This document shows, piece by piece, positions 20 to 32,222 of a DNA stretch of 32,246 nucleotides. The notes beneath the pieces are model-generated. The model was given only the letters and a program-made list of their open reading frames with translations. It had not been told where the DNA came from and did not search any database. The DNA is taken from positions 1 through 32,246 of IMG/VR virus record IMGVR_UViG_3300047287_000201, one strand, 5' to 3'. A program made the translations under genes and the position numbers. The stretch is from a virus. Each line of letters opens with the position of its first letter. Position 1 is the stretch's first letter.

Positions 20-42
20 CAATCTTTAAAACAGGAGATAAA

Positions 43-207
43 ATGGAAAAGCAATTAGGGTCAGTAATACTAATTTTGGTATCTTTAGTAGGTGTAGGAC
101 TAGCCTTTACGTTTCTAGGTCCGTTTTTTGGGGCGCTTATCCTCCTTAAATCTATCTTTGACGACATCCCAGACGCAATTAAAAAATACAACGAGGAGAC
201 AAAATGA
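43..207 (+). CDS. Small membrane protein, unknown function
   Basis: A 54-residue protein. The ATG at 43 is preceded by GGAG with good spacing. Residues about 7-45 are almost wholly hydrophobic (valine, leucine, glycine, phenylalanine), probably one long or two short membrane segments. They are followed by an acidic and lysine-rich tail (DDIPDAIKKYNEETK), probably cytoplasmic. It is the first gene after the promoter-like box, and its stop overlaps the next start (ATGA). Small membrane proteins of this kind are common among early phage genes. No family is recognised, and a holin is unlikely because it lies far from the endolysin gene. Confidence 0.7.
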   Translation: MEKQLGSVILILVSLVGVGLAFTFLGPFFGALILLKSIFDDIPDAIKKYNEETK

Positions 208-440: not shown

Positions 441-458
441 TCGCCTACAGGAGACAGT

Positions 459-2560: not shown

Positions 2561-2581
2561 TTTACATACGTCTCCTATTTT

Positions 2582-2600
2582 TAATAGATATAAACAGCAG
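2582..2600 (+). promoter_or_regulatory. Phage-type promoter, GATATAA subclass
   Basis: TAATAGATATAAACAGCAG lies 25 bp upstream of the winged-helix gene. The first 16 bases are identical to the box at 4593 and the first 12 to the box at 31991. No conserved -35 box is seen upstream. The fixed TAATA start and spacing suggest a T7-like RNA polymerase. Confidence 0.65.
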
Positions 2601-2624
2601 TAATCTTAAAAAAAAGGAGACCAT

Positions 2625-2945: not shown

Positions 2946-3035
2946 AAAAAGATTTTTTTAAAAAGTGTCTAAAATTTTAACAACTTATATTAAAAACAAA
3001 GCAATCTTTAGATTGTAACATACAAGGAGACAAAA

Positions 3036-3255: not shown

Positions 3256-3645
3256 ATGAAAAAGAAGTCAAACGCCCAAATGGGCCTCGAACCAAAATCC
3301 TTCCCAAAGCACAAGCAATGGGCTGTAGATCAAGATTATAAAAAAGATCTCGATCCTGAAGCAGCCGAATGGTTAGGTCGCTTTAACCAAGAATACTACC
3401 GAAACCGCTTCGAGTCAATAGAAAAAGACCTGCACAACACCCCAGAACTCAAAAAATCTTGCTACAGCAACGAAAACGCCCGTAACCGGGACCTGTATGC
3501 TATCAAATCAACAGGAAATATGGTCGATGATTTCGGTTATTCCGACGATAATGACCACTTTATTTCGGAGTTGGACTTAGTTTCTGATGGCATAAACCAT
3601 GAAGATTCGTTAATCGCAATGATCGACGCAAAAGGAAACAAATGA
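3256..3645 (+). CDS. Unknown protein, paralogue of the gene at 4799
   Basis: A 129-residue, highly charged soluble protein. Residues 43-81 (FNQEYYR...LHNTPELKKSCYS...ARNRDL) closely match residues 63-101 of the protein at 4799 (FNNEYYR...LHNTDELRKSVYD...AKNRDI). The acidic C-termini also correspond (HEDSLIAMID against TEDTLIEILD). The asparagine/arginine-rich NARNRD motif and acidic tail could suit a nucleic-acid or protein adaptor role, but I recognise no named family. The stop overlaps the start of the phosphoesterase gene. The start at 3256 has AAGGAGA upstream. Confidence 0.75.
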   Translation: MKKKSNAQMGLEPKSFPKHKQWAVDQDYKKDLDPEAAEWLGRFNQEYYRNRFESIEKDLHNTPELKKSCYSNENARNRDLYAIKSTGNMVDDFGYSDDNDHFISELDLVSDGINHEDSLIAMIDAKGNK

Positions 3646-4566: not shown

Positions 4567-4592
4567 CCTAGATAGTCAAATACTAAAATTTT

Positions 4593-4611
4593 TAATAGAT
4601 ATAAACAGGAG
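4593..4611 (+). promoter_or_regulatory. Phage-type promoter, GATATAA subclass
   Basis: TAATAGATATAAACAGGAG is identical to the box at 2582 over its first 16 bases. The AGGAG at its end doubles as the ribosome-binding site of the gene at 4617, so the transcript would have a very short leader. Confidence 0.65.
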
Positions 4612-4616
4612 TAATT

Positions 4617-4796
4617 ATGAATAAATTTTTGACAGCTATAACAACGATCAATGTAATCGGAGCATTATTTTTCGTTTCAACGGTAATGTTCGGTGAACCA
4701 ACCCCAAAGGATGCCTTCATGGCCGTCCTAACCCTAGGGGGTGCTATTGCAGGAATCGGAGCAATTAAAATCCAAAACCTATCAACAAAGGGATAA
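4617..4796 (+). CDS. Small two-span membrane protein
   Basis: A 59-residue protein starting 6 bp after AGGAG. It has two hydrophobic segments, about 4-24 (LTAITTINVIGALFFVSTVMF) and 33-52 (AFMAVLTLGGAIAGIGAIKI), separated by a short GEPTPKD turn. That gives a membrane hairpin with a short polar C-terminus. The N-terminus resembles that of the mini-frame at 4334. The size and topology fit a holin-like or host-membrane-modifying protein. The lysis genes are 26 kb away, so a lysis role is doubtful. Confidence 0.6.
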   Translation: MNKFLTAITTINVIGALFFVSTVMFGEPTPKDAFMAVLTLGGAIAGIGAIKIQNLSTKG

Positions 4797-4798
4797 GT

Positions 4799-5311
4799 AT
4801 GAGTGGAGTTAGCAAGAAAGCTAAAAAAGTACCAAAACGATGGCTCGGTGCCTTTAAACGAGGGCACCGTTTTTCTGACAGAGCGTTCATTGACGAAGAC
4901 CAAGCCTGGGAAATGCTCGAACGATGGGAAGAGTCTGGTGGTTCTGACAAGGAAGCTGAACAAGTCCTAGACTACCTTACCAAGTTCAACAACGAGTATT
5001 ATCGAGGTGTCCTTAAAAAGGGAGATCCTAACGCCCTCCACAACACTGATGAACTTAGGAAATCTGTTTATGACCGGCAAAATGCCAAGAACCGTGACAT
5101 TATGTCGGTCCAGAACGAAACAGTCAAACGCACCAAGTTTAGACCGAATGAAGATGATAATAACGCGGTGGACGCTGGTACGGATGACCTCGACACGGTA
5201 GGTAAGTCCAAATCTAGGTACACTCCTACACTCAATGAAACAGAAGACACTCTTATAGAGATTTTAGACGGTATTAAGCTATTTAATACCCCAGAAGACC
5301 CCGAACAATAA
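4799..5311 (+). CDS. Unknown protein, paralogue of the gene at 3256
   Basis: A 170-residue charged protein. Residues 63-101 share the FN-EYYR ... LHNT-ELRKS-Y ... NAKNRDI block with the protein at 3256, and the C-terminal acidic helix TEDTLIEILDG is shared as well. It differs by a longer basic N-terminus (KKAKKVPKRWLGAFKRGHR) and an extra helix at 32-60 with many acidic residues. The basic start hints at contact with nucleic acid, but this is inference. It is transcribed with the small membrane gene before it, followed by a promoter at 5316. No named family is recognised. Confidence 0.78.
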   Translation: MSGVSKKAKKVPKRWLGAFKRGHRFSDRAFIDEDQAWEMLERWEESGGSDKEAEQVLDYLTKFNNEYYRGVLKKGDPNALHNTDELRKSVYDRQNAKNRDIMSVQNETVKRTKFRPNEDDNNAVDAGTDDLDTVGKSKSRYTPTLNETEDTLIEILDGIKLFNTPEDPEQ

Positions 5312-5315
5312 CGGT

Positions 5316-5333: not shown

Positions 5334-5386
5334 AACCACCTAACAGAGCCACCCTATATGGACGCTCATAAATAAGGATGCACACT

Positions 5387-11705: not shown

Positions 11706-11726
11706 AGGTTTATGTAATAGGACGCA

Positions 11727-11819
11727 TTGCTATCCAAAAATCATAAAACCAAAGCAAAGAAAGATGTAATTTGTAAGAGGATGCTACGGCTACCCTTGAA
11801 GAATGAAGTCGAAAGATAA
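11727..11819 (+). CDS. Possible 30-residue leader peptide
   Basis: An open frame in the long capsid leader, beginning at a TTG with TAGGA just upstream. It encodes a basic peptide (KTKAKKDVICKRMLRLPLKNEVER at the end, given here as the region 11748-11816). It is well framed between in-frame stops, but no other evidence supports translation. The leader may instead work only as RNA. Confidence 0.25.
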   Translation: MLSKNHKTKAKKDVICKRMLRLPLKNEVER

Positions 11820-31480: not shown

Positions 31481-31524
31481 GAACTCAAATATGTTGGCAA
31501 CAATCTTTAAGCTGGACTCTTGTA

Positions 31525-31818
31525 ATGGCAAGACCATTACGATATACTTATATAAGACTTATTGAAAACGAGGAAAACGTGGAAAAAACAGAGAAAAACG
31601 AAACCAAGCTAGTTCAACTCAATATGAGAACCCACACGCTTGAACAAGTTGCCGCTGTTAAGGAACGCACGCATGCCGAGTCGAGCACAGCCGCCATTCG
31701 CATGAGTATTGAAATTGCTGACATGGTCACAAAAACCATCCAAAGAGGCGGCAAGGTTATTTTAGATGTTGATGGCGAAAAACAAGAAATTGTTATGCCG
31801 AGCATGCCTCACCGATGA
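31525..31818 (+). CDS. Ribbon-helix-helix-like DNA-binding protein
   Basis: A 97-residue protein. Residues 27-65 have the ribbon-helix-helix pattern: a short strand TKLVQLNMR, helix A TLEQVAAVKERTH, turn AESSTA, helix B AAIRMSIEIADMVTK. The end (RGGKVILDVDGEKQEIVMP) is common in small RHH regulators. RHH proteins bind palindromes as dimers, and one lies just upstream. The ATG at 31525 has a weak ribosome-binding site but the same distance from its ACAATCTTTA motif as the first gene. A GTG at 31579, five bases after GAGG, is an alternative that gives 79 residues. A weak promoter-like ATACTTATA lies at 31544. Confidence 0.68.
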   Translation: MARPLRYTYIRLIENEENVEKTEKNETKLVQLNMRTHTLEQVAAVKERTHAESSTAAIRMSIEIADMVTKTIQRGGKVILDVDGEKQEIVMPSMPHR

Positions 31819-31828
31819 AAAGGAAAAA

Positions 31829-31993
31829 ATGAACCCAAGAGAACAATTTCATATTAGTTTGTTAGTTGCATCAGTCCGGGCAGCCGACGAAGTTATATCC
31901 CCTGAAAAATGGTTTTCTTTATCATTATTTTTTGAAATTGATTGCATAAGATTTTTTTATTCAAAAATGTGGTCGGACCTTGATGATTTTTAA
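31829..31993 (+). CDS. Hypothetical small protein
   Basis: A 54-residue protein with AAAAGGAAAAA before its ATG, 10 bp after the regulator gene. It has an N-terminal helix (REQFHISLLVASVRAADEV) and an aromatic, partly hydrophobic second half (KWFSLSLFFEIDCIRFFYSKMW). It could be a small membrane-associated or regulatory protein transcribed with the regulator. Its stop codon starts the promoter at 31991. The function is unknown. Confidence 0.55.
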   Translation: MNPREQFHISLLVASVRAADEVISPEKWFSLSLFFEIDCIRFFYSKMWSDLDDF

Positions 31994-32008
31994 TAGATAT
32001 AAGTGTAG
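31991..32008 (+). promoter_or_regulatory. Phage-type promoter, GATATAA subclass
   Basis: TAATAGATATAAGTGTAG combines the GATATAA core of 2582 and 4593 with the TGTAG end of 8506 and 11688, linking the two subclasses. It starts on the stop codon of the previous gene. No convincing gene follows before the terminator at 32073. Confidence 0.72.
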
Positions 32009-32099
32009 GTTGTAGTAGACCTATTTACTTGACTCCAAATAAAGATGGATTGTCTCCCCAAAACTTTATTTCCCCGCTAGTCCCCCTAGCGGGTTTTTT
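32008..32099 (+). ncRNA. Candidate small RNA (about 90 nt)
   Basis: Bounded by the promoter at 31991-32008 and the terminator at 32073-32099. Three hairpins are predicted by eye: TAGGT/ACCTA (32006-32010 with 32019-32023), AAATAAAG/CTTTATTT (32037-32044 with 32064-32071) and the terminator stem. The loop of the second hairpin holds TTGTCTCC (32050-32057), the exact complement of the ribosome-binding sites at 195-202 and 3026-3033, and close to those at 450, 2616 and 34. The only frame inside is 11 codons with no ribosome-binding site. Transcription and target pairing are inference. Confidence 0.5.
32073..32099 (+). terminator. Strong terminator
   Basis: CCCGCTAG and CTAGCGGG pair perfectly over eight bases around TCCCC and are followed by TTTTTT. 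This is the clearest rho-independent type terminator in the window, 65 bases after the expected start of transcription. Confidence 0.9.
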
Positions 32100-32222
32100 A
32101 TGCCCTGGACAAACTATACCGCCCCATCTTTAAACCCTTCTAATAGCCTCGCCATTGATTTTAATGAGAGGGGGTATGGTAGGGCACCCCTAGAGCTAAA
32201 AGACCTTTATAAAACGTTTTAG
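32100..32222 (+). CDS. Doubtful 40-residue frame
   Basis: An open frame starts at the ATG right after the terminator T-run (MPWTNYTAPSLNPSNSLAID..., ending LKDLYKTF). No ribosome-binding site precedes it. The composition looks protein-like, and it could be the start of a gene remodelled by recombination. The rest of the stretch, to the window end, shows nothing I can support. Confidence 0.22.
   Translation: MPWTNYTAPSLNPSNSLAIDFNERGYGRAPLELKDLYKTF

Follow-up and report, generated by a model that had tools for sequence, protein, structure and literature searches.

The stretch of DNA analysed here (the window) is a virus contig of 32,246 bases, which by Pfam-A and PHROGs scans has a podovirus-like set of + strand genes (Table 1). 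No near match to it exists among 50,697 phage records. A portal-protein profile search of IMG/VR gave 80 loci, among them nine nearly complete relatives that are co-linear and circularly permuted; the winged-helix and phosphoesterase genes are both present in only one of these nine, G007 (L102/L103). Two helicase-based scans for relatives returned none that is close, and the helicase-carrying relatives L028 and L024 are organised differently, with a divergent layout, and lack the promoter-plus-seed element described below. The proteins at 3256-3645 and 4799-5311, neither with a Pfam or PHROG match, both match one and the same region of relatives (G007 2543-2992) and look like paralogues; in several relatives, their homologues are encoded just upstream of the first late promoter.

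Table 1. Positions of the elements and genes discussed in the text, with the basis of each assignment
Feature	Position	Strand	Basis
Promoter-like repeat ATTTTTAATAGATATAA, early/middle class	31986-32002	+	exact copies, core count
Predicted short non-coding RNA	32003-32099	+	promoter, terminator, no gene between; fold
5' hairpin GUAGGUU/GACCUAU	32005-32024	+	predicted fold; start-site dependent
Seed hairpin AAAUAAAG-A-UGG-(AUUGUCUCC)-CCA-AAA-CUUUAUUU	32037-32071	+	predicted fold
Seed UUGUCUCC, complement of GGAGACAA	32050-32057	+	opening cost; rank and shuffle tests
Intrinsic terminator	32073-32099	+	8 bp with 6 GC, T6
Candidate target: ribosome-binding site of gene 43 (GGAGAUAA)	34-41	+	8 nt, one G-U
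Candidate target: ribosome-binding site of gene 204 (GGAGACAA)	195-202	+	8 nt Watson-Crick
Candidate target: ribosome-binding site of helicase gene 459 (GGAGACAG)	450-457	+	7 nt, 9 with G-U
Candidate target: ribosome-binding site of winged-helix gene 2625 (GGAGAC)	2616-2621	+	6 nt; also paired in cis
Candidate target: ribosome-binding site of gene 3036 (GGAGACAA)	3026-3033	+	8 nt Watson-Crick
Cis hairpin GUCUCCUAUUUUUAA/UUAAAAAAAAGGAGAC	2570-2621	+	spans promoter at 2577; ribosome-binding site opening costs
VapE/D5-type helicase	459	+	protein match
PriCT primase	1691	+	protein match
Winged-helix protein	2625	+	protein match
Metallophosphoesterase	3642	+	protein match
Terminase	6994	+	protein match
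Portal	8533	+	protein match
Head protein	11889	+	weak match
M15-type endolysin	30651	+	protein match

At the right-hand end of the window, a promoter-like repeat and an intrinsic terminator bracket a short stretch with no convincing gene, as the preliminary description had proposed. The 17-mer ATTTTTAATAGATATAA recurs exactly at 2577 and 4588, with a partial copy at 4, and TTTTTAATAGATATAA (31987) is present in three exact copies. The core TTAATANNTATAA matches seven times in the window, always on the + strand and always between genes, and never on the opposite strand; the expected number from shuffled sequence is 0.06. Because of this excess, and because the late class of such elements is kept in relatives, the core element is, judged from its sequence, a genuine regulatory repeat; it is most likely a promoter. 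No common -35 element was found for the core repeats. A pattern search for the promoter returned ten IMG/VR contigs, none of which encodes a protein like those of the window, so that the sharing looks like chance.

Genes 2625 and 4617 are preceded by repeats of the same class as the one at 31990, which is not of the late class. The late class, TTAATACTTATAA, lies ahead of late genes at 5315, 8505, 11687 and 20264, and its counterpart in relatives, TTAATACTTTA, precedes the portal gene and occupies other intergenic sites in G007, and is also present in L002, L006, L007 and L012. Described more broadly as TTAATACTT(TA/ATAA), the late promoter family comprises the sites at 5315, 8505, 11687, 20264, 25483 and 13856 and is conserved in L102/L103, L012, L007 and L002; it has no -35 element, and no phage RNA polymerase was recognised that might serve it. 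A single-subunit RNA polymerase was likewise not recognised among 20 proteins compared with Pfam-A and 30 compared with PHROGs, several large proteins being unmatched.

Other regulatory elements lie elsewhere in the window and in its relatives. Between 4592 and 4869, a 59-codon ORF (4617) lies behind an early-class promoter; the strong terminator that comes next (4846-4869) falls within the beginning of the following ORF (4799), an arrangement that suggests a second short unit or an attenuator. The inverted repeat GTAATGGCAAGACCATTAC at 31520-31579, placed between a -35-like TTGTAA and a -10-like TATACT upstream of a small gene at 31579, looks like a repressed promoter. In the relative G009 (L105 1400-2075), a non-coding stretch of about 500 bases, with TTGCACATTTCGGTGCATTT twice beside it, lies upstream of an early-type operon. 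A conserved, covarying RNA motif, NGRYGC-loop-GCYAYCN, occurs in the window at 11720-11735 and 11779-11795, with a permuted form at 5348-5364. Most relatives whose capsid is at least 60% identical carry it in the leader of the capsid gene, usually as two copies at about -136 and -89, and the permuted order, GCYAYCC-loop-GGAYGC, appears once, behind the first late promoter. The matches (15 and 8) compare with about 0.5-0.7 in randomised sequence, the closing pair varies between G-C, A-U and U-A with 8 double-change cells versus 3.0 in shuffles, and no capsid-leader copy matches an Rfam family; the motif is possibly a protein-binding operator or an antitermination signal.

The stretch 31990-32099 is best explained as a predicted transcription unit for one RNA, and a short RNA is probably made from it. 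The predicted transcript is about 95 nt long (92-99 nt), its start being uncertain between 32001 and 32008, and it ends at a terminator of sequence CCCGCTAG-TCCCC-CTAGCGGG-TTTTTT. This terminator, introduced as the strongest of the window, is one of three strong ones (the others are at 4846 and 13816) and not clearly the strongest. A coding explanation was rejected: the sole ATG frame within the unit has 11 codons (32046-32081) and no ribosome-binding site, and a 40-codon ORF at 32100, which begins within the tail of the terminator, matches no Pfam family. The 97-nt form of the RNA is predicted to fold into three hairpins at -27.0 kcal/mol, compared with -16.3 ± 3.1 kcal/mol in shuffles (z = -3.45), and its fold beats 199 of 200 shuffles. 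When the terminator is left out, the fold is ordinary (z = -0.7 for 32008-32072), and in these models much of the excess stability is due to the terminator.

The 8-bp stem of the middle hairpin, AAAUAAAG/CUUUAUUU, had been recognised from the start, but the 19-base loop assigned to it is closed further by the pairs UGG/CCA, which leave a predicted loop of 9 nt, AUUGUCUCC, with an opening cost of only 0.1-0.24 kcal/mol for any start from 32001 to 32008. The seed within this loop is, as first reported, the exact complement of the ribosome-binding sites of genes 204 and 3036, and the partial pairings described for the first gene, the helicase gene and the winged-helix gene are also present (Table 1); the first gene begins with an ATG at 43, and position 34 is that of its ribosome-binding site. 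Four of the seven GGAGAC occurrences on the + strand are early ribosome-binding sites, and most of the candidate target sites open at a cost of 0.4-2.7 kcal/mol.

Any CUCC pairs with ribosome-binding sites, a caution given at the outset and justified by the controls: 12 of 120 loop permutations that keep CUCC do as well as the native loop on the early sites, and part of the pairing effect is therefore generic anti-Shine-Dalgarno complementarity. UUGU, the tetramer that precedes CUCC, ranks first among the 256 tetramers at the eight early starts and second at the six early starts that bear GGAG, whereas it ranks 204th at all late starts. The early-minus-late difference is equalled by a single one of the 120 permutations that keep CUCC, and the native early pairing by 12 of 2520 permutations of the full loop. 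Among dinucleotide-shuffled RNAs, 17 of 1000 contain a 9-mer as good, and 2 of 1000 contain one that is unpaired. Shuffled-loop controls, proposed in the preliminary description, thus favour the loop, which fits early sites and not late ones and is open in the fold. The nominal probability of the match is about 0.002-0.02 depending on the control, for a hypothesis that was formed post hoc and concerns six to eight targets; given this small number, the post hoc origin and the generic share, it is treated as suggestive that the loop matches early ribosome-binding sites better than chance and late ones not.

Only two of 909 native + strand 70-mers beat the loop; they overlap, and both hold the cis element at 2570. 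Here GUCUCCUAUUUUUAA (2570-2584) and UUAAAAAAAAGGAGAC (2606-2621) stand on either side of the promoter at 2577-2593, and the modelled cost of opening the ribosome-binding site of gene 2625 is 13.2 kcal/mol in a read-through RNA versus 3.4 kcal/mol in an RNA that starts at 2594. The predicted hairpin would thus bury this site in read-through transcripts only. Some late genes of phage T4 are known to have such an arrangement. It suggests that pairing of GUCUCC with GGAGAC is used by the present phage in its early region, and the trans reading gains plausibility from this.

The best single explanation of the locus, with a probability of roughly 45%, is that it encodes a trans-acting small RNA directed against the ribosome-binding sites of the early module. 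It is preferred because of the rank of the native loop at early starts and the shuffle results, and because the sole better native stretch is the cis element. The early/middle-class promoter at 31990 would give rise to an RNA of about 95 nt ending at the terminator, and the 9-nt loop would pair in trans with the GGAGAYAA-type ribosome-binding sites of the first genes, namely 43, 204, 459 and 3036 and, more weakly, 2625. Pairing would block ribosomes and lower the output of early proteins, the helicase among them; late genes, with GGAGAA, GGAGTA, GGAGGT or GGAT, would escape repression. The promoter repeat, the terminator, the predicted fold, the complementarity and its specificity are read from the sequence; production of the RNA, its timing and the repression we infer. 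That the RNA is made late, as first supposed, finds no support, since its promoter has an early/middle-class sequence and late genes use TTAATACTTATAA; such a promoter would produce the RNA alongside its targets, which counts against the mechanism. A more far-reaching version is doubtful. It holds that a virulent-type phage has a dedicated small RNA that reads a GGAGAYAA ribosome-binding site code used only by the early module, and that gene 2625 carries the complement in cis, the two together forming a two-layer RNA code that splits early from late translation without a protein.

No close relative with this region was found in the collections searched. The seed is absent from G007 and from blastn comparisons of the region with 32 relatives, which gave pieces of 17-19 bases at most; a promoter-plus-seed pattern scan of IMG/VR had no match, blastn for homologues of the RNA in phages or plasmids found only chance pieces, and those TTGTCTCC matches in relatives that were checked are antisense or, at about 1590 in L105, belong to a non-coding region that is unrelated. 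In G007, the nearest complete relative, a terminator with a similar CTAG stem stands at the late end (L103 14915-14938), with no such promoter or seed beside it and with the preceding gene reaching to within about 40 bases. Loss of the loop where the terminator is kept had been named beforehand as an observation that would speak against the small RNA. It is what G007 presents, yet it weighs little because the neighbouring genes are unrelated.

In an unlikely alternative, the promoter at 31986 serves replication or packaging at a genome end: transcription from it would prime replication or help processing, and the short RNA, halted at the terminator of the late operon, would be a by-product. 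The T7 end promoters phi-OL and phi-OR are situated near genome ends with no gene behind them, and phi-OR has a role in replication. Both are counted as promoters of T7, and a link between phi-OL and genome entry has been described (PMC6171733). The promoter at 31986 resembles them in its position close to one end of the record, with no gene following it, and in G007 the late operon ends in a terminator of this type. It differs from them in its shorter motif, in the terminator that follows at once and in that no T7-like polymerase was recognised; moreover, the relatives are circularly permuted contigs, the ends of the record need not be physical ends, and the early-specific seed is left unexplained.

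If the ends are joined, on circular or concatemeric DNA, the early genes come to lie about 190 bases downstream, and the promoter could read through the terminator into the early operon from gene 43 onward. The two hairpins that stand behind the promoter and directly before the terminator would then be an attenuator or antitermination site, comparable to the put RNA of HK022, which acts as an antitermination site. The unit at 4592-4869 likewise stands just before a gene. This cis-acting leader is rated slightly lower again: it presupposes joined ends, the early operon has a partial promoter copy of its own at 4, and the specificity of the seed is not accounted for.

A Rfam scan of the RNA gave nothing at the gathering level and no match to C4, and the sub-threshold matches are mostly terminator signal. 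The best of them is the Betaproteobacteria toxic small RNA (RF02278), at 23 bits with a gathering score of 50. Its consensus begins with UGUCUCC and finishes in a GC-rich terminator, and the alignment places the same heptamer, then a terminator, in the RNA described here; the middle part is unlike. Members are 57-92 nt long in B. cenocepacia and toxic when cloned in E. coli, their role being unknown (PMC4603805). Because 13 of 14 control genomes also give sub-threshold matches to this family, membership was rejected; host mRNAs nevertheless stay among the possible targets on account of the shared heptamer. On such a reading, an improbable one, the UGUCUCC seed would silence host mRNAs with GGAGACA, and the pairing with early phage genes would reflect their host-like ribosome-binding sites; the weak match and its frequency in controls tell against it. 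Least probable of all is that the unit is a promoter decoy or relic whose complementarity is fortuitous, an idea that fits the lack of conservation in distant relatives and the ease with which any CUCC pairs with Shine-Dalgarno sites, but not the joint occurrence of an exact promoter repeat, an open loop and early-versus-late specificity.

Known phage small RNAs mostly target a single phage gene or host genes, and a phage RNA of the present design was not found in the literature searched. If the proposed trans-acting small RNA is real, a shared early ribosome-binding site read by one RNA would let a phage mark temporal gene classes at translation initiation. The idea is directly testable, as small changes in the loop and in the ribosome-binding sites should cancel out. 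A phage precedent is the c4 RNA of phages P1 and P7, in which a complementary segment, likely in loops, prevents translation of a phage gene by covering its ribosome-binding site (PMC12197685). Both are phage RNAs complementary to such a site; c4 acts on the ant mRNA, whereas the predicted RNA is flanked by a promoter and a terminator of its own, and its candidate targets are several early genes at a distance. In design, it also resembles the C-rich-loop (UCCC) small RNAs of Firmicutes, such as LhrC of Listeria, RsaE, RNAIII and SprD of Staphylococcus and FsrA of Bacillus (PMC4132741). Like these, it is short, with CUCC or UCCC in a loop complementary to Shine-Dalgarno sites; its independent promoter and intrinsic terminator are predictions, its C-rich seed is unpaired in the predicted fold, and its complementarity exceeds chance nominally and post hoc. 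In the Firmicutes RNAs, too, one seed can target several mRNAs. Those RNAs are cellular and experimentally demonstrated, whereas the one described here is phage-encoded and predicted, and its seed extends to UUGUCUCC, a match to the early sites of the phage and not to Shine-Dalgarno sites as a whole.
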